From: Ianthella basta
Lineage: Eukaryota; Porifera; Demospongiae; Verongiida; Ianthellidae
DNA length: 64,000 nt
Reading direction: 5' to 3'
Assembly: GCA_964019415.1 (NCBI GenBank)
Contig: OZ025881.1
Coordinates: 6,195,524-6,259,523, forward strand
Each line of letters opens with the position of its first letter. The stretch's first letter is position 1. The notes beneath the pieces are model-generated. The model worked only from the letters and a program-made list of their open reading frames with translations, did not search any database and was not told the DNA's origin. The position numbers were made by a program, and so were the translations under genes. Positions 2,521-33,220 of this stretch are shown here, one piece after another.

Positions 2521-2569
2521 TTATATATATATATATATATGGGGCATTAATTGCTAGTGGCAATGTCAC

Positions 2570-4366: not shown

Positions 4367-4456
4367 CATGCTAGAATGAAAAGAAACCTTTGTGGCTAGG
4401 GGTAGACATGCTTGATCTATTACCGGACTTCACTAGCCAAGAGTTGAAGGATAATT

Positions 4457-4498
4457 GCCAAACGTTTCGACGACCATGCGGTCGTCTTCATCAGTGGC
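4457..4498 (-). ncRNA. Candidate hammerhead ribozyme of the Penelope-like element
   Basis: On the minus strand the core reads GCCA, then CTGATGA (4494-4488). A perfect 7-bp stem II follows (GACGACC and GGTCGTC closed by GCAT), then GAAAC, GTT and TGGC. CUGANGA plus GAAA around stem II is the conserved hammerhead core. GCCA and TGGC can form stem I. Stem III would be very short, as reported for hammerheads of Penelope-like elements, which are thought to act as dimers. Activity is not demonstrated, and the H17 cleavage position (U here) is less usual than C. Confidence 0.55.
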
Positions 4499-4642
4499 GG
4501 TACAAAACAGAAAGTGACTCGCTTTATATAGGCTAAGATGGCGCTAATGTGAGTGACAGCAAGTGAGATGACAGGTGATGAATAAACTTAAGGGGCAGGG
4601 TGGGCGGAAATCAGGGAAGCATGCAGGGTACAGAGGTGGTGT

Positions 4643-6277
4643 CTAACAGGAAAATAAGGAGTTGTACACTAGGGGCAATGTTCCATCATTTCTGTTTAAT
4701 GTGTTGGGGTGAGATCTAATGTGAATTGACTCTAATGTAAGTCTATGGTAGAGATGGGGTTGCTGCTCCAGTACTCTGACGTTATTCCAGTCCACAGGGT
4801 GGTGGTGGCTCCATGCGTGCTCAGCCAGTGCTGAGTTTGCACAGTCCCCTGACTCCACCGCCTTCCGGTGCTCCTTCATCCACTTACTCAGGCATCTGCC
4901 TGTCTGGCCTACATAAGTGGCTGGGCAACCTGCACATGGGATCTGGTATAAGACTCCAGCCAGCTCTTCTGTCGGGACACGATCTTTGGGTTTTACCAGG
5001 AGCTGTCTGAGGGTGGTGTTAGGGCGAAATGAGACCCTCACTCCTAGTGGAGTGAGGACTCGGCGTACTGCCTCGGACAGACCACGCACATAGGGGAGGG
5101 TGACCACTGGGCCCCGGGACTGGTCGTCCGTGTGCTTGGTGCGGGTAGGTGTGGAGTGGGATTGAATAACCCCTTTGGGGTACCCATTGTTGATGAGGGC
5201 CTGTCTGATGTGTCTGGTTTCCTGATCCTTCGCAGTGACATCTGAGCAGATTGCCCCTGCCCTGCTGTGCAGCGTCTTGACCACCGCAAGTTTGTGGGCC
5301 AGTGGATGGTGGGACATAAAGTCCAGGTAACAGTCTGTGCGGGAAGCTTTCCTGTACACAGTCGTTGAGATGGAGCCATCCGGATCCCGCTGGAGAAGGA
5401 CATCCAAGAATGGAAAATTGCCTTCTGATTCCACCTCGACTGTGAACTGGATGCTTGGTTCCACACCATTGAGGTGGTCCAGGAATTGTTGTACTCTTGA
5501 GGCCAGGAGAGCTGCACAGGTGTCATCTACGTAACGTTTCCAAAACCTCAGGGGGATGTCTGTGGTTGCCAACACCCTCTCCTCCACGTCTTCCATAACT
5601 AGGTTGGCGATGGTTACCGAGACCTGGGATCCCATTGCCGTCCCAAAAGTCTGCTGGTAGATCTCTCCACGGAAGGCAAGGTAGGTGGCACCCAAGCAGA
5701 ACTCCAAAAGCTTAATCACCTCATTCACACTGAGGCCAGTACGATCCTTCAGCCCCACGTCATCCTTGAGTCTGCGTTGCGCTACTTCTGTGGCGAGATG
5801 CACAGGGACATTCGTGAACAGTGACATGACGTCAAAGGAGACAAGGAGTTCATCTCTTGGCAGGACTTGTGGCTTGATGAACTCAGTGAAGGCCTTGGAG
5901 TTCCGGACGTGTGCTGGCGAGTTGCCTACAAGGGGGGCTAGGATTGCTGCAAGATGTTTTGACAGCTGGTAGGTGGGGGACCGCAGGAATGACACAATTG
6001 GGCGCAATGGTACCTCAGGTTTGTGTACCTTCGGTAGTCCGTATAGCAGTGGAAGACGTCCTGCAGAAGACCTGAGCTTGTCGTAAAGACTGTCGGTGAT
6101 GGAGCCTGACTTCTTCAGCTTCAGCAACATCTCGTTCATCTTCCGTTCTAGGTTAGAGGTGGGGGTTTTGGTCAGCTTCTTGTACGTGGTTGAGTCAGCT
6201 AGGAGGCTGTTCATCTTCCTGTCATACTCCACCACGTCCATCACTACTATGGCTCGTCCCTTGTCCGCTGGTAGCAC
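4643..6277 (-). CDS. Penelope-like reverse transcriptase with GIY-YIG endonuclease
   Basis: This is an uninterrupted frame of 544 codons. The N-terminal part starts inside the RT (LPADKGRAIVVMD, motif 1 region), followed by YGLPKVHKP and RPIVS, then SFDVMSLFTNVP (first catalytic Asp), GTAMGS..S and RYVDDT (catalytic YVDD). The C-terminal part has a CxxC followed by TYVGQTGR and EHRKAV, a GIY-YIG endonuclease of the Penelope type. Such enzymes prime on nicked DNA and copy element RNA. The natural protein would begin further upstream. Here the 5' end is lost at about 6285, so the first Met at 6277 is only the first one available. The body is free of stops, which indicates recent insertion. Confidence 0.85.
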   Translation of the reverse strand: MLPADKGRAIVVMDVVEYDRKMNSLLADSTTYKKLTKTPTSNLERKMNEMLLKLKKSGSITDSLYDKLRSSAGRLPLLYGLPKVHKPEVPLRPIVSFLRSPTYQLSKHLAAILAPLVGNSPAHVRNSKAFTEFIKPQVLPRDELLVSFDVMSLFTNVPVHLATEVAQRRLKDDVGLKDRTGLSVNEVIKLLEFCLGATYLAFRGEIYQQTFGTAMGSQVSVTIANLVMEDVEERVLATTDIPLRFWKRYVDDTCAALLASRVQQFLDHLNGVEPSIQFTVEVESEGNFPFLDVLLQRDPDGSISTTVYRKASRTDCYLDFMSHHPLAHKLAVVKTLHSRAGAICSDVTAKDQETRHIRQALINNGYPKGVIQSHSTPTRTKHTDDQSRGPVVTLPYVRGLSEAVRRVLTPLGVRVSFRPNTTLRQLLVKPKDRVPTEELAGVLYQIPCAGCPATYVGQTGRCLSKWMKEHRKAVESGDCANSALAEHAWSHHHPVDWNNVRVLEQQPHLYHRLTLESIHIRSHPNTLNRNDGTLPLVYNSLFSC

Positions 6278-6288
6278 AAAAAGGTGGT

Positions 6289-6617
6289 GATGATGAAGCT
6301 TTTGGAGTTCTGCTTGGGTGCCACCTACCTTGCCTTCCGTGGAGAGAACTACCAGCAGACTTTTGGGACGGCAATGGGATCCCAGGTCTCGGTAACCATC
6401 GCCAACCTGGTTATGGAAGACGTGGAGGAGAGGGCGTTGGCAACCACAGACATCCCCCTGAGGTTTTGGAAACGTTACGTAGATGACACCTGTGCAGCTC
6501 TCCCGGCCTCAAGAGTACAGCAATTCCTGGACCACCTTAATGGTGTGGAACCAAGCATCCAGTTCACAGTCGAGGTGGAATCAGAAGGCAATTTTCCATT
6601 CTTGGATGTCCTTCTCC
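6289..6617 (+). pseudogene. Inverted fragment of the Penelope-like RT
   Basis: The plus strand encodes KLLEFCLGATYLAFRGE through RYVDDT to NFPFLDVLL. It is almost identical to the central part of the minus-strand RT at about 5415-5715. It lies head-to-head with the main copy and is cut off at about 6617, where Ginger-like coding sequence begins. It has no start or end of its own and cannot make an enzyme. Confidence 0.85.
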
Positions 6618-9589
6618 CGCAAACGAGCGATCAGAAGGAAAGCCACTAAGTTCGTGATCCACGATGGCGAGCTATTCTTCCAGAAGAAAAAGAAGAAAGC
6701 AAGGGATGGCAGGAAGGTATGGAAATTTATTAATATTTAGCAGTATTCTAGCGCAATTGCTTACTATAGCTAATCTATAGCTGTATTATAGCTGTATTAT
6801 CTTTTCTTATTATGCATTGTATGCCGCATACACCGTGTTCTGTGCAGTACAACTTCCCTTACTATAGCTAATGGATATGTTACGCGATATACGTATAATG
6901 CATGTACGTATTCTTTTATAATATTATATGTATTTATATTCTATTGTAATATTACGTACTCTCTCTTCCCTTAGGTCATTGAATTACGATACATTCAGAC
7001 GAGAGAGGAGCAGGTGAAAATTGTGAAAGCCTGCTATGTTGATCCAACTGCTGGCCACATGGGCATCAAGAAGACCATCAACCGAATTACAGAGCGTTTC
7101 ATGTGGCCTGGAATAGTGAAAGATGTCAAGGCAATGGTATGTGTAGTATCACTCACAGCCAGATGATTGAACTATATTACTGCTGTTAGCTAAATCATGT
7201 CACATGCATTCTATGTACCCATGCACAGATCACAACATGTGATGCTTGTCAGCGGACAAATCGTCGAATAACTACTGCCACTCCAGAGCTTCATCTAGTG
7301 CCAGTCAAGATACCTTGGTATCATGTGGGCATCGACTTTGTAGGGCCGCTCACAACATCAGACAGTGGCAATCGCTACATCTTGACGTTGAGTGACTATT
7401 GTTTGAAGTGGGTCGAAGCTGTTCCTTTGCCAACCAAACATGCTAGTGGAGTTGCACATGCTCTGTTCAAGGTAAATATAATATTTATATCACAACCTTG
7501 CAATGGCATGCAATAACAGTTATGTACAATGACATCTATGCACACCATGAAACGTAGTGAAATGTTTTTGCTTGACTGCATGCTTATTCTTAGATCTTTA
7601 TGCGTATGGGGTTGCCACAAGTGTTGACCAGTGACAATGGAGGGGAGTTCGTGAACAAACTGAACGATGAGCTGATGAAAGTTCTCGGCATAAGGCATCA
7701 TCTGACAACAGCTTATCACCCACAGGTACGTAGGTGCCACAATGCAATATTTGGTGTAGCCATGTATTTATAAGTAGCATCTTGCAACACACTATACTTG
7801 ATATGCACTAATTGATTTTGCTATATTAGTATTGTATTGTAATACTATGTACAATTTCCAATTGCAGGCTAATGGCCTTGACGAGAGGTTTAATCAAACC
7901 CTCCAAAGCATGCTGGTGAAGTTTGTCGCAGAGAAGCAGAAGCATTGGGATGACTTCCTCGACACGTGCACTTTTGCGTACAACACATCGGTACATGAGT
8001 CGGCGCTCTTCTCACCTTTTGATATCATGTTTGGTCGTAAGGCAACCTTGCCAATAGACCTTGTGATGGCCAAGCAAGACAGTGAAGGGAAGCTACAGAA
8101 GTGCCTCGAGACTGGTGGAGAACTCTCTGTGTCAGAAGTGGAGAAGTTAGCAAGTCACCGGCAAGGTATCATCGAAGAAGCTAAGCAGAACATCAAACAG
8201 GCGCAGGAAAAGCAGGAGGTGTATGATCTCAAACATGCCCACCCAGATGCGTTCAAGGTTGGCTGTCAAGTCCTGAAGAAGGACTTTCGACGAAAGAAGC
8301 AAGCCAATGGAAAGCTGAACATGCGATACCTTGGGCCATATGAGATCACAGAGAAACTTGGCAAGGGACTATATGCTCTTGAGCTGGTTGCTGACCCAAC
8401 TCAAGTGGTCAGCAGAGTTCATGGAGCTCATCTCAAGCCCTACCACTTGCCTCCATCTACTGATCACAGTGACACAACCACAGATGCAAGTTCAGCCTCA
8501 GATGTTTCACTGGAGCAACCATCAACGGAGCCCTCAGTCCCTTCAGTGGTATACACTCCCAAGTGTGAAGACAGCATTCCACCACTGCCATCACCACTGC
8601 GCACGCCATGTAACACGACCTTCAGTGTCAACCCCACACCATCTGAGTCTGTAGACCAGCCCATTCTCACCAGCTCTCCTGTGCCTGGAAAAAGTAGGAA
8701 ACCCCATTCCAGTATAAACCTTGCTGCACGTGACCTCATGGTCAAGGTTAGGCAAAGTAAGGCCAAACAAGAGTCCAACCCAGAGGTCATTTGCATTGAC
8801 AGCTACAAGCCAAAGAAGATATCAAGCAAAGCAGTGCAATCCAAGAAGAAGCAGCCTTGGATTGACAGTGGCATTGTGAAGCTTTCAACAGCTGTCAAAG
8901 CAGTCATCAAATCCCCAACTGGCTGGCTTACTGACGAAATCATCGATGCTGCACAGAACACCTTGCATGAACAGTTTGGGGTTCCTGGGTTCCAGTCAGT
9001 TCTCCGTGGGCAAAGTTGTAGCTTCAATGTAGAGTCTGAATAATTCATTCAAATTCTTCACAATGGCAAGCATCATTGGATGACCATAAGCACAATCGGA
9101 GCAAAACACCCTGAAGTTTTTGCTTACGACAGCCTTTTGTGCACAGCTCCAGACCATCTCCAGCAGCAGATAGCTGCACTACTGAAGACAGGGGAGAAAG
9201 CCATCGATGTGAAGTTCTGCAAAGTTGCCATGCAGACAAATGGCAGCGACTGTGGTGTGTATGCCATAGCTTATGCAACAGCACTTTGCTTAGGAGTATC
9301 ACCCGCAAAGCTGCAGTTCGACGAGAATGCAATGCGACCTCATCTCATCAAGTGTCTGCAGGATGGCCGATTCACTATGTTTCCAGTGAGGAAAGCTTGC
9401 AGGAAGGCTATAGTGAAGGCGACACAGTGCATCCCCATTCACTGCATCTGTCGAATGCCTAGTATGGATGGTGCTACCATGATCGAGTGCAGTGGTTGTG
9501 GAGAATGGTTCCATACTAACTGTGTATCACCAAGTCCTGCAGCACTCAATAACACAGAACAACCATGGTACTGTGTTGACTGTATGTAG
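6618..9589 (+). mobile_element. Ginger-like DNA transposon: integrase-type transposase, Ulp1 protease, PHD finger; one in-frame stop
   Basis: Coding exons are about 6618-6716, 6975-7136, 7229-7471, 7594-7725 and 7868-9589, with good GT-AG borders. Domains in order are a basic N-terminal segment, an H2C2-type zinc region (GHMGIKK...CDACQ), a DDE integrase core (GIDFVGPL, LTSDNGGEF and the Glu in LDERFNQTL), a chromo/GPY-like region (MRYLGPYEI), a Ser/Pro-rich linker, a C48/Ulp1-type protease (HHW, YDS, QTNGSDCGVYA) and a PHD finger (CICR...CSGCGEWFHTNC...WYCVDC). Introns, a gypsy-like integrase and Ulp1/PHD modules without an RT fit Ginger elements. A TAA at 9041-9043 interrupts an otherwise continuous frame between linker and Ulp1. 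The first His of the zinc region appears to be Tyr. The 5' end is cut off by Penelope sequence. Confidence 0.75.
9080..9589 (+). CDS. Ulp1-like cysteine protease plus PHD finger (C-terminal part of the Ginger-like protein)
   Basis: This frame is the same as that of the integrase exon but lies beyond the TAA at 9041-9043. Catalytic-type residues of the Ulp1/SENP fold are visible: His in HHW just upstream of the first Met, Asp in YDS, Gln in QTNG and Cys in DCGVYA. The C-terminal PHD finger shows the Cys4-His-Cys3 pattern. It could only be made by read-through or from a second start, so it is listed as a part of the decayed transposon rather than a host gene. Confidence 0.6.
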   Translation: MTISTIGAKHPEVFAYDSLLCTAPDHLQQQIAALLKTGEKAIDVKFCKVAMQTNGSDCGVYAIAYATALCLGVSPAKLQFDENAMRPHLIKCLQDGRFTMFPVRKACRKAIVKATQCIPIHCICRMPSMDGATMIECSGCGEWFHTNCVSPSPAALNNTEQPWYCVDCM

Positions 9590-9724
9590 GAAAACATTCT
9601 TATTATGTTTGTAGTATTGAATTCCCATGGTTTTATATTATATGTAAGTTATGTTATGTACTCTTGCACATGTCGTGATGATAGCTACCTGTACAGACAC
9701 CAAATTGCTGGTTATATAAAGGGT

Positions 9725-10050
9725 AGACAGGTATTGGCAGCCAAAAGTGGTCCTGGGACAGGCTTTGGCAGTCAAAAGTGGTCCTGGGACAGACTTTGGC
9801 AGTCAAAAGTGGTCCTGGGACAGATTTTGGCAGCCATAAGTGGTCCTGGGACAGGCTTTGGCAGCCAAAAGTGGTCCTGGGACAGACTTTGGCAGCCAAA
9901 AGTGGTCAGGGGACAGACTTTGGCAGCCAAAAGTGGTCCGTGCGCCCTCAGACCACTTTTGGCAGGGTAGGACCACTTTTGGCTGCCAAAATTGGCCCTG
10001 GGTGGACCACTTTTGGTTGCCAAAAGTGGTCCGGGGGACCGGTTTTGGTC
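9725..10050. repeat. Minisatellite of about 31 bp, partly inverted at the right end
   Basis: At least seven direct copies of AAAAGTGGTCCTGGGACAG plus TTTGGCAGCC occur from 9725 to 9940. After 9945 the unit continues in opposite orientation (GGACCACTTTTGGC). Open frames in all three readings are a by-product of the repeat and are not called as genes. Confidence 0.85.
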
Positions 10051-10387
10051 TAGTCTGGCCTGCTGCGACCGTCCCAACAAGCACCCGGGGGGGGGGGGGG
10101 GCGAGTTAAGGGAGGGACGGTCTAGCAGCAATAGCGATTAGTTAACACCAAGAGTAGACATCTCTTATCTACTCTTGTTAACACCTGTTCGACCAATCAG
10201 ATGCGAGTACCGCGAATCGCGGCAATGATATTCATGACCTTAGCCGTTGCTGCTACGGGTGGGAACTGTATAATTGGAGGTGTGACATAGATAACCGAAA
10301 GGTGTGAACTAATCGCTATCCCCGCTAGACCGTCCCTTCCCTTCTGCGCACCTGGCGCTTATTGGGACGGTCTAGCTAGCCAGACTA
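10051..10387. mobile_element. MITE with TAGTCTGGC ends and 9-bp target duplication
   Basis: The element begins TAGTCTGGCC, ends GCCAGACTA and has sub-terminal GACCGTCCC/GGGACGGTC. It is flanked by GTTTTGGTC on both sides (10042-10050 and 10388-10396). It is non-coding. The 9-bp duplication points to a Mutator-like source. It shares its end design with 46538-47292. Confidence 0.75.
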
Positions 10388-10442
10388 GTTTTGGTCAGGA
10401 CCACTTTTCGCATGACAGGCCTACACAATCCTTCACAGCTAC

Positions 10443-11151
10443 CATATAGTCACCTTCGCAACTGATTCCAACGGCAAAGTGCTTACGGTCACAGTAATAA
10501 CAAGGATGGTCACTTGTGCACCAGTTATATCTGCACTGGTCCAGTCTAGTCTCGCTTCCTGTGCAATTTACATTCCTCATCCAGGAGGCTCTACCTGGTC
10601 CAAAATGCTCCTTCCGAAACCACGTCAGCGCCCCAGCGAATCCCAGTTGAAAGCAAGCCACAGATGCTGAAACATTGCTAAAATCAAGTTCACTCTTAGT
10701 CTCGTTCCCAGACCCACCTCCGCCGTTCCGCCAATTTTATTTAGATAGGGGGGCGGAGGAAGGGTCTGGTAACATTGCCATACCGTTTCTGTACCTGCGC
10801 CTGAATCCTGGCGCGACCAATCAGATCACAGAACGTTATTGTATTTCGCAACTTCATATGCGTTTATGCACGTGATTAACTACGTTTATTCATCGGTGAC
10901 TCCGCCTCCTCGGTACAGAAACGGTATGGCAATGTTACCAGACCCTTCCTCCGCCCCCCTATCTAAATAAAATAGGCGGAACGGCGGAGGTGGGTCTGGG
11001 AACGAGACTAGTTCACTCTGGGTTGTGTCTTGATAGCAGACAGTGCCCCACACTTGATTCCGGCATATATTAAGCCGACCTTCCGTACGATTAGAACCGT
11101 TGACAAAGCGCAGTCTTCCCATCGATTGGACTTCGCATTCAGTGGCACTAC
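10443..11151 (-). pseudogene. SRCR exon of receptor copy A split by a MITE
   Basis: The two halves (11151-11011 and 10696-10443) together match the 384-bp SRCR exon of copy B (30580-30197), including RLRFVNGS, WGTVCYQD, CFQLGFAGA and the Cys-rich end with ISCEGD. A 314-bp MITE (10697-11010) with target duplication GTTCACTCT lies inside the exon. In addition, a 2-bp insertion (TA) just before the donor changes the exit phase relative to copy B. A normal product is therefore not expected unless the MITE is spliced out in frame. Confidence 0.8.
10697..11010. mobile_element. Foldback MITE inserted in an SRCR exon
   Basis: The ends are TAGTCTCGTTCCC and GGGAACGAGACTA. The long arms pair almost to the centre (CAGACCC.CCTCCGCC...GGCGGAGG). 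GTTCACTCT occurs on both sides (10688-10696 and 11011-11019). The empty site is preserved in copy B near 30440, which proves insertion after duplication. Confidence 0.9.
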
Positions 11152-11224
11152 CTGCAAAATCAGTGGGATTGTTAGCATTCTATAGCTGCACCCTTCGTAT
11201 ACACAATCTATTTATGACAGCTAC

Positions 11225-11282
11225 CTTCTGCCACTGTCAGTAGAAGAACGGCTAGAACGCCGCATGATCCCTTTAATGCCAT
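11225..11282 (-). CDS. Signal-peptide exon, receptor copy A
   Basis: This exon is ATG plus 19 residues (MALKGSCGVLAVLLLTVAE), a basic-hydrophobic signal peptide, ending AAG before donor GTAGC in phase 1. It corresponds to the exon at 30654-30711. It would feed into the SRCR exon starting at 11151, which is disrupted. Confidence 0.7.
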
Positions 11283-12136
11283 CCCGGCCCACCGCAGCGG
11301 CCCCAGATCTAGAGTCGTCGTAAAAATATGGGTTACTGTGGGCTCTGCTGGGCCTGGGTGACAGATGTTGTGGTAGATAATGTACCTGTGTGTGTGTGTG
11401 AAGCCCGCCGCCCCCCCGCAAGGGGTCAGCAGGTTCATGCATATACGAGGCAGACGCATGCGCCATGTGTAATGGAACCGACCAGCACGGCTAGGCAATG
11501 GCAAAAGGGCAGAGAAGAGTACAGCCATGACCACCAGCCCCATTCCTGGGGGCAAGCCCCCAGCCCCCAAGGATGTGCTGGTGGTACAGCAGCAGTCCGT
11601 GAGTAGCTGTGCACTTACAGATGTTTTTGACCAGTCTTCCTATATGCAGTAGTTCTGTGTGACCCCGCTGATGTACTCTTAGGTAGGGTGTAATGTTAGT
11701 TCGCAAAGGGTGACGAATTAGTGGCCAAGGCAAGGTTCGTGTGGTCTACAGGCGCTATGGATTTTAGGTGGCTGGTACAGTGGTACACAGTGCTGGCTAT
11801 ATTGTGAAGAAAGTGCATGGAACAAGAGTGCGTGTGGGCCAGTAGGACCCTTCAGTGTGAGGTGCATGAGGTCTTAGCTGAGGATGAATAGTGCCACTGT
11901 GCCTTTCAAGGAGGCATGTTGACCGCCTCAAGGAAGGACCTTAAGGCAGCGTGAAGGGTCCTGTGGCGTTCACTAACAGCCCAGTGAGGGTAAAATACCA
12001 TCACCTTCCAGCAGAGGCCAAAGATTGGTGCCACTACCTATGTATAATGGACAAGCAGGGTGCTTGCCAGCGTAGCTACAGCACTCGAGCCTGGGGGCAC
12101 GCCCCCAGCCCCCACACAGGCCGTGTACGTACATAG

Positions 12137-17690: not shown

Positions 17691-18429
17691 TTACTGAATC
17701 ATGCATTGCGATCTCCTTTGTTCTCCAATTAGAGGCATCCGTTCATTGACTTGCACATTGCCACGGCCAAGTCCTATGTACCTGACCATTTGTTGCAGAG
17801 GGAGTTCATCATTTCCTGCAAGTGGCTGGCCCGGTGGTTGTTGACCCTCTCCTAGACCCGGTGGTGGTTGACCCTCTCCTGGACCTGGTGGTGGTTGACC
17901 CTCTCCTGGACCCGGTGGTGGTTGACCCTCTCCTGGACCCGGTGGTGGTTGACCCTCTCCTGGACCCGGTGGTGGTTGACCCTCTCCTGGACCCGGTGGT
18001 GGTTGACCCTCTCCTGGACCCGGTGGTGGTTGACCCTCTCCTGAACCCGGTGGTGGTTGACCCTCTCCTGGACCCGGTGGTGGTTGACCCTCTCCTGGAC
18101 CCGGTGGTGGTTGACCCTCTCCTGGACCCGGTGGTGGTTGACCCTCTCCTGGACCCGGTGGTGGTTGACCCTCTCCTGGACCCGGTGGTGGTTGACCCTC
18201 TCCTGGACCCGGTGGTGGTTGACCCTCTCCTGGACCCGGTGGTGGTTGACCCTCTCCTGGACCCGGTGGTGGTTGACCCTCTCCTGGACCCGGTGGTGGT
18301 TGACCCTCTCCTGGACCCGGTGGTGGTTGACCCTCTCCTGGACCCGGTGGTGGTTGTTCTTCTCTAGGACCTGGAGGTTGTTGGTTCTCTCCTACAGGTT
18401 GTTGTTCTATTTGGTGTTGCTGTATATGG
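17691..18429 (-). CDS. Cytoplasmic-tail exon of receptor copy B with coding minisatellite
   Basis: The acceptor TTTCAG at 18430 is in phase 2 with the transmembrane exon. The tail starts with HIQQHQIEQQPVGE, runs through about 19 units of PPPGPGEGQ and ends with a non-repeated segment including QMVRYIGLGRG and NERMPLIGEQ before the stop at 17691. Units vary only at Ser and Leu positions in two copies. Proline-rich PPPGP could bind SH3 or WW domains. The ERMPLI stretch fits the acidic dileucine sorting pattern [DE]xxxL[LI] used by AP adaptors. Both functions are inference from motifs. Confidence 0.75.
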
Positions 18430-21400
18430 CTGAAATTGCATAACACACCAATTACGTATGTAGTTACAATACTATGTATACTATAAATATTCTAAAAAAT
18501 CGAAAATCTAAAGTTCGCAAACTTCCAGTGATGTTGCCTTGACCCACTCTATTTATTGGCTGTCTCCAAATTTCGGGGAAACCTCTAATTTTGGCAATGG
18601 CAAGGTTTCTTGCCGTTAAATTTGTCTCCATGGTTGATGAACATGAACACTTCTCCAATACTGGGATTCTACACCTCCTTGTAGACATGATACCCATGAA
18701 TAATGCATGATACTGTGACAAAGAAAGCACCAGCAGCAGCCATTTTCTACTAGAAATAATAAAAATTTTCTACAAAAATTGTAAGGATGTAGGAATGGCA
18801 TAAAAAGGACAGAAACAAGTAAAAGTTGTTACACAGTGGAGCATTAACCATGGTCCCTACATGCAAGAATGTTGCACCTTATAGTCCTACATGGACCTCC
18901 CTCCCACTTTTACTTGTTTCTGTCCTTTTTATGCCATCCCTACATCCTTACAATTTTTGTAGAAAATGTTTATTATTTCTAGTTTTTGTACTTTTTATAG
19001 TGGGCAGCTGAGCTGAAGCAACACACTTAGTCTCAACCATAGGGCATTGGTGCAGGCATTATACCTCATTTCTGTAATCCTGGAGCTCAAGGTGTGGGCT
19101 AGCACCTAGGTTCCGCGGTAACCCAGCGAGAAACGGCAACCGGAAGCCAACCGTGGCGGGGAAATGCACGCACAACCGCGAAAGTCCTTCAAACGGCGCA
19201 CAAGCTAACTGCTGCAGCTGCTAACAATGGCACCAGTCACTCCGGTTTCAGCCGGTTTAATTACGTAATTTGAAAATGGTGTCCGTCCCACTTGGCCAAA
19301 CAACATGGCAGGAGTCGTGGCAAGTGCTGTCTTCCGCACTAACTCGCGCTGCCTTCTAACCTACAAAGGAATGCAGCCAGCCAAAAATGGTGCAATATGG
19401 TGCGAGAAATAGTTTCCTGGCCCCTCTGGTTCGTGTGCTACGGCTGTCGAAGGAGAAGGAGAAGGAGAAGGAGAAGGAGAAGGAGAAGGAGAAGAAAGAG
19501 AAGGAGAAGGAGAAGGAGAAGGAGAAGGAGAAGGAGAAGGAGAAGGAGAAGAAGAAGAAGAAGAAGAAGAAGAAGAAGAAGAAGACGAAACGTGGGAAAT
19601 GTCGACGGCGCTATCTACGTGTAGGCGCACCTTCGCTGTGAAGTAAGGTTAGTTATGTGCACCGTTCAGTCCCCGCTTCGTCATGGTAAGCTTCGTTTGT
19701 CGGTTTTCGATCCTGTTCAGGAGTAGCGCGACTTTTCGTTTGTATTACAGTATACAAACAACCACTGCCATCCCTACATAGACAGCACTACCGTGCTGTC
19801 TGATACAGAGCCTTCCTAAAAATGGTGACAGTGAACGCTCCAATTTTGCAAGAAGACTCTAATTTTCGTAAGAAGACAGCAAAGAAGATCATATTGCCTC
19901 CTAAATTTCAAAATGTAAGATTTGAAATGCAGATAAAGTTCACAAATTTTTAGAATATTTACAGTAATTGCATTAACGCATGCATGCATGCATTGACACA
20001 TACCGGTGGGCTGCATAAAGAATAATGACTCCAGTGGCCACCCATATGATTGCTATGGCCACAAATAACACTACTCCAAGTCCAATTGCAGCTTCATCAC
20101 CTGGACCCAACCCTATACAAGTACATATAGACATACAAATAATGTGTACTTTTTATTAACATTATTGCTGCATAGGCACAATATAAAATGGTGATGCTAA
20201 ATGGGGTGAGTGAAGCGAAGCCCCTCTCTTCTGGGTGGTGCGAAACCGGAAGACATAGTACGTTGCGGAAGTCATGGTACGTTGCGGAAGTCATGGTACG
20301 TTGCAGAAAGTCATGGTACATCGCTCCATATATGGATGATGCCATGAAAAGCTGGTGATTCCTCATTGTTCAGTGATCATACCCATGGACAAAGCTTGGA
20401 AAGCAAAATACGTACAATTATACCGTATAGCGGGAAATATTGGCTGGGCATTAAATTTGGTGGTTTGCCGGTTTTCAGAAAATCCGCCAAATTAAAACCC
20501 CACCAATATTTCCGGCTATTATATACACACACAATACAGTACAATAAGTATACGTACAAGTACCTTGCAGTTCATTATGCATGTGCACTGGAGTTTATCG
20601 CCAGATGCCGCTGTTGAAGTATGTACAGAAGGAAGGACCTGCGCTCAAGTGTGACACTCTCTCAAGGAATGAGACAAAACACGTGAACGAACGCGTGAGG
20701 CAAGCTCACGTGCCTGGTGAGAAAGTGAAGGTCGGCATGAAGCACAGTGTGACTTGTAGCTCTTACACAGGCTACTCGTCTGAAGAGAGAGCGAAGATAG
20801 GAAGATACAAAGCTGAAAACGGTCCCACTAGTGCTACGCATGTGGGACATGTCCAGTCCGTTTACATAACGTGAACCTTGAGGTATTCACACCTTAAGGT
20901 GTGAAATTCCTGTGTTACCATGACTACGCATTTGCTGCATGTGATGTGCGCGTGATTTGTGAGGATTGAGAGATCGAACGTCATATCCGGCGGTGGCAAG
21001 AAACAACATTTAAGAAGACAAGAAGAAGTTTTGTTAAGAGGGAAACAGAGCTGATGTCTTCGTTGTTCTCAAACTTCGAAGGGATCGATGTTTCAAGCCT
21101 TTATACGAAGGAATCAGGCACTTCGAACTCGGTGCATGTTGAGTGACGTCATCTGCTTGCTTCCGTTTTGTACTCCATATATGGTTTGTCACGAGAACGT
21201 CATGTGATGCGCTTGGTGAAAAGGCTTTACTGCCATTGCTTTCACAAACCACTGTTACAGAAATCGCTGAGACAATGTATGGCCGGATAAACATTGAAAT
21301 GGTTAGTCAAGCGAATTTTCTAACTTTTCCATGAGGGATTAAGCTTTGCACCATTCCTATCTAGTGTTAGGCGACCCGAACTTTTTAGATTAGCACGTAG

Positions 21401-24400: not shown

Positions 24401-27400
24401 TCCCACACAGTGTGCGACACATTCAAGCATATTCACAAGTGTACGTCAAGCCTACTGTGACGTCACAGCAATATGGCGGATTTCTTTGGCTGATTTTTTA
24501 GAAGTGAGCCATTATCCCTCCACCAGGAAATTTCGAAGCGCTCTAACTGCAATTTTTGGTGGTTCTAGATGATAATCTATCATATAAAGGCAACTTGTAT
24601 AACCGTGACAGTGGACCTTTAAATTTTCGTGGTTCACAAGTTATCACGTTATTCACATTTTTACTTTTGTGGTTGCAGAGTCTCGAGCAGGAGACATAAA
24701 GCTTTGTGTAAGTTTTTGCGGGGTGAAACTTTAACGGATAGTTGTTGGTCTGCAAAAACTGCAAAAGTTAAAGCGTATACAGTCACTTGTGCATGCATAT
24801 AGGAGCACCAATCTAGTCTGGCCAATTGGAAGTTAAAAAAACGTAATGTAGCTACAACCATTGGCTTATTGTTTCAAAATGCACCATTCCATAAAGTCTA
24901 CTAGTAAATAACTCACCCAATTTTTGTGTGTGATACGTCACATTCCCTGATGGCCATTTGTCATCATCATCATTGACAATCACAGCTCTCACCCAAAAGG
25001 TGTATCTGGTGTCTGGTTTTAGCCCTGGGACAGTAATACTCTTGCCTTTTGTTATGAGGTTATGCAATTTACCATCCATGTGATATTTCACCAAGTACAG
25101 CTCATCCACAGAGTAATAGTTAAAACGGTCATCAGCAGCCGTCCACTTCAATGAGATGGAAGTAGCAGTGGATGATTCTGCTGTAATGTTCAAAATGAGA
25201 CCTGTACACAAATGAAGTGTGTTAATTATTTTGTTAAATGTCAGAGTTGCACAGAGCCCCACATGGTGTACATTGCAAGTAGCTATGTAATAGTTAAATG
25301 CTGACCAAGAGGTGTCTCTGAGATGTAGAGCACGAGGCACGTGGGCGCAAAGCGCCCGAGTGCCGAGTGGTCTAAATCTTCAGAGACACCGTTTGGTCAG
25401 CATTTAAGTGTTAGAGATTCCAAATGATTGGGTGAGGAGCCAGCAGCGAATCAGTTTACCTACTTGCCCCTGCGTCATCATGCATCTTCTGGAAGTAGTT
25501 AGCTACTCCTGACAGTGGTGGAGAAAACGTCGTGTAATTTGGGTCTTAAGTTGGGTTGTTCATCTCGTAGCGGACGTTCCCTACAGGTTGGCAGTGGATG
25601 CGCCACATCAGCTAAGTGTAAGCTTACTCACTGTCAGCCATGTCAGCCACAGCGTTTTCCAGAGCGGTGTCTTTAACCAAAGCTTGTACCCCAGCTTGTA
25701 GCTAGTTCCTTTCTTGGCTATGGTTCGTAGCCGCATTGTTGCGTTGAATTAGAACATGGCTAGACGAAATAGACCACGGCGCGAAACAACACCCGAGGTG
25801 TCTACGATGTTTAGAAACATTGCTTAGACGCACATTACCATGGCAACAGGATCTATAGCATGGTTATAGCATGAGCTAGGGCATAGTCCATATACAAGTG
25901 GCATGCATATATACTTGCATCCGTGGACTTGACCTGAAATTACTTCTTCTGTGTGTCGTTAACATTGCACAATGCTGGAAATGTTGGCAAAAGCTGCACC
26001 AAGGCTATTGCCGCTGTACGATTATTTTAAGCTACTTTAGACCGCTGATGGAGCGCATGCATGTGGTGTGTGTTGAGCTTAGAAACAGTGTTGAAGAGGA
26101 AGGAACTGAGCAGGAGGACAAAAGTGAAAGTTGTGAATGCATCAATCATCTGCACACTATATAATGTATGGTTGCGAGATGCGGTGCCTGACAAAGCAGC
26201 TACAATCCAGGGTACAAGCCACCCCAGATGAATGTCTTGAGGTGGATCAAAGGAGTAAACAGACTGGATAGGGTAAGGAGCATGGACATTAGGGAGAAGC
26301 TATGTCAACTGAGTGTTTTTGACATGGTAAAGACCAGGCAGGAGAAGTGGAAGGCTAGGACGGAAGAGATGAGTAGGGAGACAACAACCAAGAAGATATT
26401 TGAAGGTGAGATGGCAGGGAAAAGGCCTAGAGAAAGACCCAGAATGAGATGGACTGACAATTACAAATAACTATAGACACTTTATATAACATTTCTTATA
26501 ACTGTCATTTAATGTGTATAAGGTATGTAAGGATGACCCCCAGTATTGGATAAATATCTGTACTGATTGATTGATATATATATGGGGCATTAATTGCTAG
26601 TGGCAATATCACACTGCATGCAGGTTTAACACAATACCTTCACACCTGACTTCAGCCACATATTTTCCAGAGCAGGTTTGACTTATTTTCCACAAATTGC
26701 CTTCAAGACTGCAATCTTTCAGGAAATCTTCTTTCCCACTGCAGTTTGTCTTTGTCAACAAAAAGTTTGGAATTATAGAATAGTTGGAAAATGATGTAGA
26801 GTGCCATTTGACATTCCCCAATCCAAGCTGTTTACACACAACTGTGGCACTCTGAAGGTTCCATCCCTCGTCACAGAGAACACCCCAGCTTCCATTGTAG
26901 TAGTGATGTACTGTTCCTCGAAATGATTTAACATCATGGTGCACCAGTTTCAACTGCCAGCATGCTATATGGGATAAAGAACACATCAATGTACAACAGT
27001 GCTAAATAGTTGCAACACAATGAATTCTGCGTAATATATACAGAATATACACTACACATTTAAGATTGCAGAGTTCTGGTAGTCTCTAGAGATCTAAGCA
27101 TGGAAACCATTGGCAGAATGGCCGAGACACCAATACTAGTGTAGTTGGTAGGTTTGTCATGATATCCAATGTCTTCAGTAGTTTGCATCTGACTGGCTGA
27201 CCCAAGCAAGTGACCACCCAGGTCCGCAGCCAGGTTGGTAGCAAGTGCATGCAGCTACGTTTGCATGGGAGTTCACAGCTGCATATGCATGCTCGCCAGA
27301 GTATCAGGGCTGCCCCGTCTGCGTCTGCTGTGGCTACTCAACAATGTCAGGGTACTATACACGTGCATGTAGATGAGGAGTACCAGTGAGGCCCAACCAG

Positions 27401-30400
27401 AGCCCCAACGCATTGCTGGAGAGAGCTAAATATGACTCAGAGGGCTGTGGCATTGCAGAGTTTGAACCCCAGCTTGGTTAGCTTTCAGAGTCATCTGAAC
27501 CCTCAAGATCTCAGCTGAGCTCACAAGGATGCCCACAGGGTGGTGTTACCTTGCATGCCCTACAGGAGAAGATAGTTTCTTCTGCAACAGGAATGTTTAA
27601 TGGATGTTTCCACTGCATAAAGCATCACATTCTCTTGCAGCTTATTCATGTGTTGCATATTAATTGACGGCTATTGCCATTTGCAAACAATCTTCAGCCA
27701 TTGCTCTATTTTTCCTTTGGCTGTGCATAACACACAATCAGAATAAATATGATTATTATAATTATTAGCTACACTTCTTTCATTCATTGCATGCTGTTGA
27801 AAGCTTGTGTAAACATCATGTTTCACAGGCACCATCAACAGGCATTGTGATGTAGAGCAATCTGGCTGGAGGCCTCACTCATAAACCTGCTGCAACCACA
27901 ACGAAAGAACAGCACTAAGTTATCCTCTAGTACAGCTCTACAACATTGGCACTGCTGCCATGCATTCTAACTTCTATATACTGCTGCTGTCAAGGCCTCC
28001 ATTATTTCTGAAAGGGTATTTCCTGAAACCGAACCCCCCTCCATTTGCCCCTATATACACACTAATAAAATTACATCCATGTTGATACAACAGCCATCTA
28101 TAATAAAGAACCTACTAGTCAAGCTTCCCCTTTCATATGGTGCCATTCCCTGTACAATCTGCAGTGTTTGATCCAGGCGCATGTGGGACATGTCCTATGT
28201 AAACAATGTGGTCAGCCGATCTTTTACCATCGGATGTTTGCTTATATCTCCTGCAAATTTTGTTGGATTGGAGTCAGACAAGAATCAGAAGAAAGAATGG
28301 ACTCAGCTCTTTAATTCTGCATCTCTCTAATACAATATCTGACAACAATGCCTTGCTACACTGAACAACGCCACTGCTAATGAAGCCATCTATTTAATGA
28401 GAAATATCTTTCTGGCTGTCAGAGGAACATCTGAAAGGAAAACGAATAAAATAGTCCTATTTACACACACATGCTCAAGTTTTGCATGCATGCATTGCTG
28501 TTAAACCAATCCTATCCAAGTTACAACAAGATCGACAACTAACTTTCGTTTCTCTCTCACCACCTATCGCGCCTTGTAACTCCTCGCAGGAACCAAGAAC
28601 GAATAATGCATGCATGGAAAGCCTAGATAATTTCCTTAGCATGCAAAATGAGTCATTGACGCTCCTCTACCTGCCAACACCGAAAGCCCGGATGCTCTTT
28701 TGAGAACCACTCGTGGCCAACCTTCCCTCAGGGGCCTGGTCTCGTGATGTCCTTGTGACATTCCCCAAAATGGCTGTCAGTGTTACATCGCGCTATTTGG
28801 CATTTCTTCTGAACAATTTGACCACTACTGCATGGTAAGGCTCCTTTCCATCCTTAGGTACGCACCTAGCTGCCAGATACGCTTTAGGATAATTTTGTTC
28901 CTAAGATCCTCTTGGATCATGCATGCGCGCATCACATGACATTGCACATGTAGCCACAGCAACTGAGGAATTCACAACTTTATCTTATGATCAAACCTGG
29001 ACATGTTTCACATGTGGGCTCGCATGTGGGTTATGGCTGTGTAAACAATGCGGGTGCTGCGCACGGCCAATTTTTTTACTTCCATATCTCCTGCAGCTTT
29101 GTTCAATCGACGTCAGACAAGTACCAGAAGAACAGACTCAGCTCTCTAAGTCTGCGTACAATATCTGCTGATGGTGCCTTGCCTCATTGAGCAATGTTGC
29201 CGCTAACAAAGCCATCAAATTAGCGGGAAATATCTTTCTGGCTATTGGAGGATTGTCTAAACGGAACAAAAAGAACATTAATCTGTTCATACACATACGA
29301 TCTAACTTTTACATACATGCATTGTTGTTAAACTAATCCTATCCAAAGTTACAGCAAGAAAACTAACTTTCGTTTCCCTCTGACCAACTTCTGCGCCTTG
29401 TAACTCCTCACAGGAAGCGAGAACAAACAATGCATGCATGGGAAAGTTAGATAATTTCCTTAGCATCCGAAACGAGCCATTAACGGGTCTCTACCTAGCG
29501 GGCAATACTGATAGCCAGAAAGATATTTTTGCGAACAATCAACAGCCCGCCTTCAGGGGCAATGTCACGTGACGTCCTTGTGATATTTCTAAAAAATGGC
29601 TGACGGCATTATAGCACATCGCGCGGTTTGGCACTTTCGCTCGAACAATTAGATCAAGTCTGCTCGGCAAGGCTTGTTTTCATCCTTAGGTACATACCTA
29701 GTTGCCAGATACAACGTTCTAGGACGATTTATCTAAAATAATCGCAGATCATGCGCACATCACATGATATTGCGCGCGTAGCCATGGTAACAGAGGAATT
29801 CACACCTTTATGTTGTCTTGCCTTTTGTAAACAAAAACTGCCATAACCTACAAGCGCTATAGTATGCAAGTGTTGAAAACAGTTTTGCATCGCTTCAGTG
29901 CCATCATCATTACTGAACCCATCATAGCTAATAGCTAGTATACAGTAGTAATGACAGAACTATGGCCTGCTCCCTAGTTGGAGCATTGTAAAGTGGAATA
30001 TTTATACAAATCCAATTTTTGCTACCAATGTAGCCAAACTTTTACTAGTTACCTTTCAAAACAATTGCTGAAATGTGAATTGAGAATTTATATATTAATA
30101 CAGTGCAAGTTTATATAGCTATAAATGTGCTTAAGGCTTTCCCTTTCAGTGATCTCACTCTGCCAAGTGTAGGCCTACACCATCCTTCACAGCTACCATA
30201 GTCACCTTCGCAACTGATTCCAACGTCAAAGTGCTTACGGTCACAGTAATGACAATGATGGTCATTTGTGCACCAGTCATGTCTGCACTGGTCCAGTCTA
30301 GTCTCGCTTCCTGTGCAATTTACATTCCTCATCCAGGAGGCTCTACCTGGTCCAAAATGCTCCTTCCGAAACCACGTCTGCGCCCCAGCGAATCCCAGTT

Positions 30401-30711
30401 GAAAGCAAGCCACAGATGCTGAAACAATGTTAAAATCAAGTTCACTCTGGGTTGTGTCTTGATAGCAGACAGTGCCCCACACTTGATTCCGGCATATATT
30501 AAGCCGACCTTCTGTACGGTTAGAACCGTTGACAAAGCGCAATCTTCCTACAGATTGGACTTCGCATTCGGTGGCACTACCTGCAAAATCAGTGGGATTG
30601 TTAGCATTCTATAGCTGCGCCCTTCGTATACATAATCTATTTATGACAGCTACCTTCTGCCACTGTCAGTAGAAGAAGGGCTAGAACGCCACACGATCCC
30701 CTTAGTGCCAT
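17691..30711 (-). CDS. SRCR-SRCR-FN3 single-pass receptor with Pro/Gly repeat tail (copy B)
   Basis: The exons that I can join in phase are 30711-30654 (signal peptide), 30580-30197 (SRCR), 26964-26638 (SRCR), 25201-24917 (fibronectin III), 20112-20004 (transmembrane) and 18429-17691 (cytoplasmic tail to stop). All extracellular exons are phase 1-1, and the last junction is phase 2. The product would be a type I membrane protein of about 630 residues. SRCR/FN3 combinations are common among sponge surface receptors of the aggregation-factor-receptor type, so a role in recognition or adhesion is likely, but the ligand is unknown. The introns carry several MITEs, a LINE fragment and a long-TIR element. 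Additional exons in the large introns cannot be excluded, and no exact orthologue is named. Confidence 0.75.
17845..18355 (-). repeat. 27-bp coding minisatellite, about 19 copies
   Basis: The plus-strand unit is CCCTCTCCTGGACCCGGTGGTGGTTGA. Copies are almost identical, with single-base changes in the first, the eighth or so and the last units. The period is a multiple of three, and the minus-strand frame reads through without a stop. Confidence 0.95.
18745..18985. repeat. Foldback element with 65-bp arms
   Basis: CAAAAATTGTAAGGATGTAG... followed by ...GACAGAAACAAGTAAAAGT (18770-18832) is repeated in reverse complement as ACTTTTACTTGTTTCTGTC...TTACAATTTTTG (18905-18960). It sits inside the receptor intron and is non-coding. 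Confidence 0.8.
19449..19588. repeat. (GAGAAG)n/(AAG)n microsatellite
   Basis: The tract starts as GAGAAG hexamers and passes into AAG trinucleotides. Lys/Glu, Arg and Ser/Pro-rich open frames across it are repeat artefacts. Confidence 0.95.
20004..20112 (-). CDS. Transmembrane exon of receptor copy B
   Basis: The sequence encodes GLGPGDEAAIGLGVVLFVAI followed by AIIWVATGVIILYAAHR, a single hydrophobic helix of about 23 residues with a basic stop-transfer end. The acceptor (TATAG) takes phase 1 and the donor GTATGT leaves phase 2. These match the FN3 exon before it and the tail exon after it. Confidence 0.8.
20215..20320. repeat. Short tandem repeat of about 21 bp, three to four copies
   Basis: ATAGTACGTTGCGGAAGTC is followed by two more copies with slight changes (ATGGTACGTTGCGGAAGTC, ATGGTACGTTGCAGAAAGTC). 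It lies upstream of the transmembrane exon, within the intron. Confidence 0.75.
20421..20520. mobile_element. Short MITE with ATACCGTATAGCGGGAAATA end
   Basis: Left ATACCGTATAGCGGGAAATATTGG pairs with right CCAATATTTCCGGCTATTATAT. The inner arms (AAATTTGGTGG and CCACCAA region) also pair. The family also occurs at 16881-17185 and 21940-22016. Confidence 0.65.
20600..20874 (+). pseudogene. Fragment of a transposon-encoded HTH-like protein
   Basis: The plus-strand frame contains YSSEERAKIGRYKAENGPTSAT. This resembles the N-terminal helix-turn-helix start found in many invertebrate DNA-transposon proteins (Y.xx.RAxIgxYaxEnGxxxA). It ends after about 95 codons in sequence shared, in inverse orientation, with 21725-21770 (ACATGTCCCACATGCG). 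I regard it as a remnant; the precise family is not identified. Confidence 0.4.
21940..22016. mobile_element. End fragment of the TACCGTATAGCGGG MITE family
   Basis: CCGCCAATATTTCCCGCTATACGGTATA at 21989-22016 is the right end of the same family as 20421-20520. A clear left partner is missing or diverged (AATCTGCCAAATG near 21946). Confidence 0.55.
22856..23050. mobile_element. MITE with ACAGTGAAACCTGTCTAAGAC ends
   Basis: Left TACAGTGAAACCTGTCTAAGACAG pairs with right CTTGGACAGGTTTCATTGTA. Inner GTTATAATTGACATGC and GGCGGCC blocks match the second copy at 43149-43340. It is non-coding. Confidence 0.75.
23051..24782. mobile_element. Non-autonomous TIR element of about 1.7 kb
   Basis: TATACGCTTTAACTTT at about 23058 is matched by AAAGTTAAAGCGTATA at about 24764-24779. 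Nearby, AAAGGTCCAC and GTGGACCTTTAAATTTTC form further inverse matches. No transposase frame is visible inside, but a perfect palindrome lies at 23251-23320. It lies in the intron before the transmembrane exon. Confidence 0.6.
23251..23320. repeat. Near-perfect palindrome
   Basis: Arms of about 35 bp (TTAGCAAATAAATTAGATGA..., GCAATACTGCAGCTT) mirror around 23286. It would form a strong hairpin. Confidence 0.85.
24917..25201 (-). CDS. Fibronectin type III exon of receptor copy B
   Basis: About 95 residues with FN3 hallmarks: a Trp in SISLKWTAADD, the YLVKYHMDG strand, VPGLKPDTRYTFWVRAV (the L-x-P-x-T-x-Y pattern) and the closing VTYHTQK. Acceptor TACAG and donor GTGAGT give phase 1-1. FN3 domains serve as spacer or ligand-binding modules. 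Confidence 0.88.
25295..25407. repeat. Hairpin element with GCGCAAAGCGCCCGAG loop
   Basis: AAATGCTGACCAA...GGTGTCTCTG is repeated in reverse complement as CAGAGACACC...TTGGTCAGCATTT. The core GGGCGCAAAGCGCCC is itself a small hairpin and resembles the core of 1679-1794. Confidence 0.8.
26165..26470 (+). pseudogene. LINE reverse-transcriptase C-terminal fragment
   Basis: Across one frame change the plus strand reads YGCEMRC and then NVLRWIKGVNRLDRVRSMDI, ending with GKRPRERPRMRWTDN. This is the typical C-terminal region of RTE/Jockey-type non-LTR element polyproteins (LRWI.GV.R.DRIRN.DI ... GKR.RGRP..RW.D). It is truncated on the left and frameshifted, hence dead. Confidence 0.7.
26590..28790. 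repeat. Copy B arm of the segmental duplication (partner 2570-4366)
   Basis: This arm is collinear with 2570-4366 at high identity. It carries the intact SRCR exon 26638-26964. An extra stretch (about 27820-28165) is absent from copy A. Beyond 28790 copy B continues into unique sequence, where copy A is occupied by mobile elements. Confidence 0.85.
26638..26964 (-). CDS. Second SRCR exon of receptor copy B
   Basis: 109 residues from ACWQLKLV to RCEG with the SRCR pattern (GSWGVLCDEGW, VVCKQLGLG, CSGKEDFLKDC, C-x-V-R-C). Acceptor TATAG and donor GTATT, phases 1-1. It is paralogous to 2595-2921, with few amino-acid changes (for example Lys for Asn in VVCKQ). Confidence 0.85.
28165..29815. repeat. 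Diverged tandem duplication of about 800 bp
   Basis: Blocks recur in the same order with an offset of about 800 bp: ATGTAAACAATG/TGTAAACAATG, TCAGACAAG..CAGAAGAA, AAACTAATCCTATCCAA, TGCGCCTTGTAACTCCTC, TAGATAATTTCCTTAGCAT, CATCCTTAGGTAC..ACCTAG and CACATGATATTG. Copy A (3757-4366) retains only the first unit. Short open frames inside are not supported as genes. Confidence 0.75.
30197..30580 (-). CDS. First SRCR exon of receptor copy B
   Basis: 128 residues, opening SATECEVQSVGRLRFVNGS and continuing with RLNICRNQVWGTVCYQD, ACFQLGFAGA, NCTGSETRLDQCRHDWC and ISCEGDY. Phases are 1-1 between acceptor TGCAG and donor GTAGC. It is the intact counterpart of the broken exon at 10443-11151. Several N-x-S/T sites are present (NGSN, NCTG). 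Confidence 0.88.
30654..30711 (-). CDS. Signal-peptide exon of receptor copy B
   Basis: ATG at 30711 starts MALRGSCGVLALLLLTVAE, a short basic N region followed by a Leu-rich core. The exon ends in phase 1 before donor GTAGC and joins the SRCR exon at 30580 in phase. Confidence 0.75.
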
Positions 30712-31065
30712 CCCGTCCCGCCAGATCGACCGCGGGATATTCGTATCTAGGCCTAGATACGGTATGTACTAAATTCTCCGCAAAAATGCATATTTTTATC
30801 AAAATTTTGAAAATTCTCCCACCCAGGCCCAAATAAAGTGTGGCCACCTATCACGGCTGTTTCGCACCATATAAATTGTGGCATCTTAGTTTTGGTTTGG
30901 AAACCGGGAACACGCAGCGAGACTGAGCTCGAGGTTTAAACGGCAAAAGGGAATAGGCTTTTACTCCACGGAAACTCTACCAATGCAGAAGTAACGTCGG
31001 TAAGCAGCAGAAATTACAGGTTTCCAGTGAGTCCTAGCCTTTAAAGCGTACTTTCTACTGCTGCA

Positions 31066-31233
31066 ATGGCGAAATTACAGCCGACCCTGGCATCCTTTAA
31101 TCTTCTCCTAGCGCTCTTCTGCCAGTTTTCACGCTATCGTGCTATACCTTGTATGAAAGCCCAAGGTGTCTATAACATGGCGGTGAAGTGCCTGTTCTAC
31201 GGCGCATCGCAGATTTTAGGTTACAAGTGCTAA
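31066..31233 (+). CDS. Small 55-codon frame in the left TIR arm (identical in the right arm)
   Basis: The frame begins MAKLQPTLASFNLLLALFCQ and ends with a stop after LGYKC. The right arm encodes the same peptide on the minus strand (32772-32939). The identity could simply reflect the young inverted repeat. No known domain is recognised, so coding status is unproven. Confidence 0.25.
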   Translation: MAKLQPTLASFNLLLALFCQFSRYRAIPCMKAQGVYNMAVKCLFYGASQILGYKC

Positions 31234-32771
31234 TACACGGAGCATCGTATTTCACGGCCGTCACAGACATTAGCCTACGCGAATAATTAGAACGTCAGTG
31301 ATTATAATCGGTATCTAGCTAGTACTACCAATAATTATTATTATAAGCTAGTGCTGATGACAGTGGTTCTCAATGACATACATTTAGCATAGAGGTAAAC
31401 AAATGCCAGGTGCTCAGCTGGGTGTACGTACACACATGTTCTTGTACCTATACCTATAGGTACTGATCATGAGGTACCTTACAGGCAGATGTTTGTTATA
31501 TGCATGCATGCTCTTTGTTCAATGAGCTTCTTATTCATGACAACTAAACGTGTAAATATGTATCATGTCTTAATCTGTATACAACATTTCTGAAAATAAA
31601 GTACAGAAAGATAATGGAAACAAGTAATGTCAAGGGTTAGACTTCTTGCATAAAATTATCTATTAGCTGCATGATAATGACTTGGTGAGTGCCATTTCAA
31701 TGCAGTTCAATACTCTGATCCCAAGATGATATCCTGCCCGATCCCAAGATGGCCTGCAGCACAAATGAATCTGTGCAGGAAGAGTGCAGGCACATAACAA
31801 TAGTAAAACAGCAACCACAGGTATCACGCGTGCATGAACAACAGACTGTGAAAATTATGGAGGTCAGCAGTAGTGGTCAGTGCTCCCACACAAGCAATTG
31901 AAATGGTTTTGAAATTACATGATGCAGTGCATACTAGCTACATATCTGAACTGCTCCTTGGGATATCTTTTTGTGACAATAAACTTAGCACTGAGCATTC
32001 CTTGAAAGTACCATGCACCAGTGGGTGGTGGACATGTGTGCATTAACACTTACATATGCACTTTCCTAAGTATAACATAAAGAAGAATTCACTTGACCAT
32101 TAGTGTAGTGAGGAGTGATCAGTGGGTGATTGGGCATGGGAGGGGTGTCATCTTCCAATGCAGCGCACAGTAGTTTAGTGCATGTAATGAAGGCAAGCCT
32201 TATGAGATGCACTGCATGTACAAGTACACACGTGTATACATGTAGTACTACACATAAGCGTCACATGAATTCTCTAATTATATCTGTTGAGAGAGGAAAG
32301 CAAAAACAAGAACCCAACAAATTGATCTCTCAAGAGAATGCAGGACTAACAAGTGTTTTTGAAAGCACAATTGCAGTAAGGTGTCATGCATGTGGTGTCA
32401 CCTGACTTTTACTAGACAAATGGTACAATGCACTATGCCCCATACAGCAACCAAAGTGGAACTCTGACAAGGCCTTGGCCAAGCAATGAAACAAGAATTA
32501 CTTAGGAACTTGAACAGTTAACTAGCAATTATAAGTATGAAACTGGCATGATGGAAGCCCGATCTTGTAGCCAGCTATATATAGCTACGTACATGGCACA
32601 AACATTGAACAATGTGTAGCTAAATGGTCTTTACTTCACATATGCACACAGTACCATGGCACTGTTGGGAGTAAGAGGCAGATTGCATCACATGGTGACT
32701 GCAGTAGGCATTGTGCACTCATTGTAGCTCTACAGCTACGCAGCTAGCCGTGAAATACGATGCTCCGTGTA

Positions 32772-32939
32772 TTAGCACTTGTAACCTAAAATCTGCGATG
32801 CGCCGTAGAACAGGCACTTCACCGCCATGTTATAGATACCTTGGGCTTTCATACAAGGTATAGCACGATAGCGTGAAAACTGGCAGAAGAGCGCTAGGAG
32901 AAGATTAAAGGATGCCAGGGTCGGCTGTAATTTCGCCAT
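32772..32939 (-). CDS. Small 55-codon frame in the right TIR arm
   Basis: This is the mirror copy of the frame at 31066-31233 with the same predicted peptide, including the hydrophobic stretch FNLLLALFC. Coding is not established. Confidence 0.25.
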   Translation of the reverse strand: MAKLQPTLASFNLLLALFCQFSRYRAIPCMKAQGIYNMAVKCLFYGASQILGYKC

Positions 32940-33144
32940 TGTAATAGTAAAAATTACGCTTAAAAGACTAGGAATCACTGGAAACCTGTAATTTCTGCTG
33001 CGTGCCGACGTTAATCCTGCATTTCTCCAGTTTTCGTGGAGAAAAAGGAAGCTGAATTTGTGTCTTCTTGGATGGACAGGATCCCAGTTCCAATTCCCAA
33101 TTGGCGGCTATAAATCTAAGTTGCCACTGCGAAACAGCCGTGCC

Positions 33145-33211
33145 CTGATACCAGACCACCTTTTTCGCGGCCATTTTGTTAGCGGAAGTGGTGGGCTGGG
33201 AACGAGACTAG
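33145..33211. mobile_element. Solo right end of a MITE
   Basis: The sequence ATACCAGACCACC...GCTGGGAACGAGACTA matches the right end of the complete MITE at 33221-33689. It stands just before that element's left target duplication. Confidence 0.6.
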
Positions 33212-33220
33212 GCCACCTAC

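Follow-up and report, generated by a model that had tools for sequence, protein, structure and literature searches.

The exon at 17691–18429 of the window, the whole 64,000-nucleotide stretch analysed here (C14:6195524-6259523, in an assembly of 209 Mb and 96 contigs), is predicted to encode the cytoplasmic tail of a type I receptor with two SRCR domains and one FN3 domain, and an in-frame coding minisatellite makes up most of this tail. In our best reading, to which we give a probability of about 0.5, the tail is a disordered tether that holds an endolysosomal sorting signal and whose repeat number shifts by whole units. The minisatellite would encode a long, disordered and anionic P/G/Q/E tether, placing a C-terminal acidic-dileucine-type signal ([DE]xxPL[LI]) ~230 residues from the membrane. 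This signal would pass the receptor to clathrin adaptors, leading to uptake and endolysosomal sorting. Selection would keep the composition and the tip motif, and the unit sequence and tail length would drift or be tuned.

The following features were predicted or identified in the window:

30654–30711, minus strand: predicted signal-peptide exon MALRGSCGVLALLLLTVAE with phase-1 donor AG/GTAGCT (hydrophobic-start scan)
30206–30580, minus strand: SRCR domain exon 1, phase 1-1 (Pfam SRCR 61.3 bits; splice sites)
26638–26964, minus strand: SRCR domain exon 2, phase 1-1 (Pfam SRCR 64.4 bits; splice sites)
24917–25201, minus strand: FN3 exon, phase 1-1 (Pfam fn3 42 bits; splice sites)
20004–20112, minus strand: predicted transmembrane exon, 109 nt, phase 1 in and phase 2 out (hydropathy and splice scan)
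17691–18429, minus strand: predicted tail exon to stop TAA (acceptor and reading frame)
17841–18353, minus strand: array of 27-bp units, 19 in-frame PPPGPGEGQ (TRF and in-frame reading)
17691–17840, minus strand: non-repeat C-terminus QPPGQPLAGNDELPLQQMVRYIGLGRGNVQVNERMPLIGEQRRSQCMIQ and stop, with acidic-dileucine-type ERMPLI (motif scan; alignment with sister tail)
1155–1607, minus strand: coding-looking repeat (63 bp x3) of a dispersed element (genome search)

The minus-strand exons run in the order signal, SRCR, SRCR, FN3, transmembrane (TM) and tail, are bounded by AG/GT sites and have intron phases 1,1,1,1,2. Their splicing is predicted to yield a protein of ~630 residues, and the prediction of a type I receptor is supported by the splice sites, the consistent phases and the signal exon. 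Within 30620-33700, the listed signal exon was the single candidate to pass the thresholds of a search for hydrophobic starts. Both SRCR exons and the FN3 exon exceed the Pfam cut-offs (26.1 bits for SRCR and 25 bits for fn3), in agreement with the initial annotation of an SRCR/FN3 receptor, and the SRCR scores place the predicted protein in the SRCR superfamily. Genome-wide, 150 SRCR matches were scored of 1173 candidates. A signal peptide, a single TM segment and a cytoplasmic tail are predicted by the hydropathy and splice scans. The TM exon has the borders TATAG/GG ... ACCG/GTATGT and, besides itself, has one weak genome match (E 0.69). The tail exon is exactly 17691-18429, with the acceptor ATTTCAG/CC at 18430/18429 and TAA at 17693-17691.

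A search of the genome with the FN3 domain gave three matches at E up to 1e-6, namely itself and two sister genes with 54% identity, which lie on the same strand to the left of the window. The sisters are arranged in tandem, with units starting at C14:6156878 and 6172135; the region C14:6156878-6188023 contains a 15.3-kb tandem duplication, after which a third, diverged copy begins. Their exon order and phases are those of the window gene. A start similar to the window signal exon, MARWPGG... with two possible ends, lies just upstream of the SRCR exon in the sister gene, and the TM exon LSQGGVAAIVLALIVTWMAIGFIVLGTAYCY is followed by the basic residues YREKKR, which fits a C-terminus inside the cell. 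One sister (6180-6184 kb) shares 73/123 and 69/107 identical residues with the window gene in the two SRCR domains, 49/94 in FN3 and 13/29 in TM. The 353 aligned codons of ectodomain and TM give a dN of 0.33 and a dS of 0.92 (dN/dS ~0.35). The joining of the FN3, TM and tail exons, which had been proposed from intron phases, is supported because the sister genes also have phase 1 ahead of the TM exon, phase 2 behind it and the donor GTATGT.

In the tail exon, TRF reported an array at 17826-18356 with period 27, 19.7 copies, 98% matches and a score of 1027. In the minus-strand reading frame, the array comprises 19 complete units between 18353 and 17841. Sixteen of the 19 units are identical in DNA, and each of the other three carries one substitution (one silent, one P>S and one P>L). 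Only one change was found among 133 fourfold-degenerate codon positions across the units, so their likeness points to recent DNA turnover rather than to peptide selection alone. The repeat noted in the initial annotation is therefore a real array of near-identical units, and it also forms most of the intracellular part as claimed there, accounting for 171 of the 247 residues after the TM segment, a length that depends on our own cut of that segment. When the repeat was searched against its own genome, 83 matches were obtained. Four are within the window tail, and the other 79 are weaker P/G-rich sequences elsewhere in the genome, the best of which, on C5, has an E value of 7.9e-5 and 45% identity. 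A search with 45 residues of the non-repeat C-terminus matched only itself in the assembly, with no further copy.

The sister tail exons are built from a different, 18-bp minisatellite with the unit GPQPGD, in 14 and 15 copies. Alignment of the two 15.3-kb sister units with MAFFT gave 15,148 aligned columns with 16 substitutions and 6 indels, and BLAST gave 14 mismatches and 6 gap openings (99.73%). Twelve of the 16 substitutions lie in the initial 280 bp of the unit, and two others flank the repeat gap. We take the latter two to be an effect of gap placement, because the repeat units common to both sisters match exactly and in the same order. One tail unit accounts for the largest indel, which is 18 bp long. 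The rapid turnover of the repeat expected in the initial annotation thus finds support in near-identical duplicates that differ by a single tail unit, suggesting tail-length turnover among near-identical copies within one assembly. Two haplotypes falsely assembled as a duplication could in principle explain the sister pair; the third copy of the unit start (6187415-6188023, 95.7% alike) favours a real tandem array. Whichever the origin of the pair, tail length differs between near-identical copies, although this one-unit difference may be an assembly error in the repeat.

Tail motifs were scanned by regular expressions with commonly used definitions. The acidic dileucine, ERMPLI in the window tail and DQEPLL in the sister tails, is the sole one of the scanned motifs that all three tails share, and in each it lies near the C-terminus. 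Both sequences match the [DE]xxxL[LI] pattern of acidic-dileucine AP cargo, which occurs once per tail, at residues 265-270 of 281 in the window gene and at 163-168 of 172 and 169-174 of 178 in the sisters, with numbering that begins at the TM exon. The distance from membrane to motif is 230 residues in the window gene and 131 and 137 in the sisters. Both sisters carry one and the same C-terminus, which has two matches in the genome, the two sisters only. When the two distinct non-repeat C-termini were locally aligned, the motifs were in register with a score of 41, equalled by 220 of 20000 shuffles, which is modest evidence for a kept tip motif. The shuffling chance of finding the motif in both C-termini is ~1.4e-4 for [DE]..PL[LI] and ~0.007 for [DE]...L[LI], values that assume independence and were computed after the motif had been noticed. 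Besides this motif, each sister tail has one SP and nothing else, and the window tail has one TRAF2-like PREE, one PPGL and one YxxPhi/ITIM-like VRYIGL.

P, G, Q and acidic residues are abundant in all three tails, whereas the unit sequence is not common to them. Their net charges are -20 (window), -18 and -19 (sisters). A probably disordered tether with a sorting signal at its tip is favoured by the finding of three clustered genes with one exon plan and equal phases, in which different units (27 bp x19; 18 bp x14 and x15) give tails of like make-up. A proline ahead of the dileucine is described in the available text of one study as improving AP binding and uptake (PMC2882754). Several points count against this reading. 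The C-terminal match is short and represents two independent sequences, the sisters counting once. The VRYIGL motif occurs in the window tail and the sisters lack it, and the share of proline plus glycine is 60% in the window tail versus 47% and 48% in the sister tails. Dileucine signals of known cargoes are often much closer to the membrane. In addition, [DE]xxxL[LI] is present in 15% of the proteins of one tail survey, as given in the available part of that source (PMC2882754).

The initial annotation had proposed that the repeat sets an intracellular signalling valency, each unit being an SH3 or WW ligand and copy number setting the number of docking sites, as discussed for DRD4. The 19 bare PxxP found in the whole window tail agree with this, and the DRD4 third-loop VNTR offers a precedent in the accessible text of its source (PMC3877354). 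However, the regular-expression scan of the window tail found no class I SH3, class II SH3, PPxY, PPLP or PPR match, the 19 units contain no basic residue, and neither sister tail has a PxxP. The motif data thus do not bear the valency proposal out, and we consider it improbable. Since the three tails share bulk properties and the tip motif, a tether fits them better than a ladder of docking sites.

A more serious rival is that the array is neutral filler, a minisatellite tolerated in a disordered tail with functionless length and sequence, so that function would reside in the membrane-proximal and C-terminal pieces, if anywhere. In favour of neutrality, the window gene and the sisters have units of different sequence and period, two of the three changes among the 19 units alter an amino acid, and one unit has changed between near-identical sister copies. 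The retention of a P/G/Q/acidic array with closely similar net charge in all three tails speaks against it, the sisters being one independent case. We regard filler as possible, though less probable than a tether that carries a sorting signal. It is very unlikely, on the other hand, that splicing fails to join the TM and tail exons or that the gene is not expressed. The gene model is predicted from DNA, and the first SRCR exon of a partial neighbouring copy in the window is disrupted by an insertion, but this rival is opposed by the sister genes, which match in phases, donor and exon order, and by the dN/dS ratio.

Extending the tether with its sorting signal to the gene family, the tails might be replaceable tethers, each paralog line having its own minisatellite with similar bulk chemistry and gaining or losing single units, so that the distance between signal and membrane would be an evolvable and probably polymorphic control of uptake. 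This extension is speculative and we hold it rather doubtful. If effective concentration scales as N^-1.5, as in a simple chain, that of the signal would shift by ~6% per unit. The natural series of 14, 15 and 19 units, with two unit types in one gene family, makes it possible to ask whether uptake depends on how long a disordered receptor tail is, and whether fast-mutating coding repeats vary innate receptors inside the cell as well as outside.

The VNTR region of DRD4 is proline-rich. According to the available part of one source, exon III of this gene carries a 48-bp VNTR in the third cytoplasmic loop, with SH3 motifs described (PMC3877354). Given the predicted splice, the window gene likewise has an in-frame coding tandem array in a cytoplasmic, probably disordered region of a receptor, and by this analogy such a coding VNTR is already known. 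The window gene differs in being a predicted single-pass SRCR/FN3 receptor with the array in its C-terminal tail, a 27-bp unit and no SH3 consensus match in the units, and its sister genes use another unit. SCARB2 (LIMP2) belongs to another receptor class and has a short tail. It is described, in the available text, as using DERAPLI via AP-1 and AP-3 (PMC5297682), which the window ERMPLI resembles, a proline preceding the dileucine in both (PMC5297682, PMC2882754). The window and sister motifs, in contrast, lie 131-230 residues from the membrane.

Cephalopod rhodopsins reportedly have C-terminal PPQGY repeats and thus also a receptor cytoplasmic tail of P/G/Q tandem repeats, but they are GPCRs and their unit bears a tyrosine. 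A fibronectin/SRCR/CCP protein of Geodia cydonium, reportedly described by Pahler in 1998, combines SRCR with a fibronectin-type module, as the window gene does. Tandem SRCR families occur in sponge and sea urchin, and 158 of 296 Amphimedon SRCR genes are in tandem arrays, according to the accessible text of one study (PMC10855680). In that text on the sponge SRCR superfamily, 'tandem repeat' refers to genes, 'minisatellite' is absent and the sole 'cytoplasmic tail' passage does not mention repeats (PMC10855680). No repeat-built SRCR receptor tail with a different paralog unit was found among titles and opening abstract lines of the open literature, in one search among the best 15 of 65 matches, and the peptide sequence itself retrieved no paper, which weakly suggests that this arrangement is novel.

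A candidate third repeat tail at 1155-1571, with a 63-bp unit x3, the same phase and RRASAEAANRQAE resembling the start of the sister tail, was rejected as a dispersed element; for this exon, 150 genome-wide matches were scored of 328 candidates, itself included, many of them with stops. The partial receptor-gene copy is located at 2530-11302 on the minus strand, with a signal-like start MALKGSCGVLAVLLLTVAE and both SRCR exons, and is 93-99% alike to the window gene in ungapped blocks. By eye, a 9-bp duplication AGAGTGAAC accompanies the insertion in its first SRCR exon, and the insertion has terminal inverted repeats. No exon for FN3, TM or tail was found for this copy in the readable sequence, and 7.5 kb adjoining the window consists of N. 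Retrotransposon-type ORFs were observed at 4643-9589, including a minus-strand ORF of 621 aa that matches reverse transcriptase below the cut-off (21.7 against 29.6 bits), one with a Tf2-1-like SH3 domain and one with a Ulp1 protease and a PHD finger. Many long GT/AC microsatellites, several of them >100 bp, are spread over 12137-61822.
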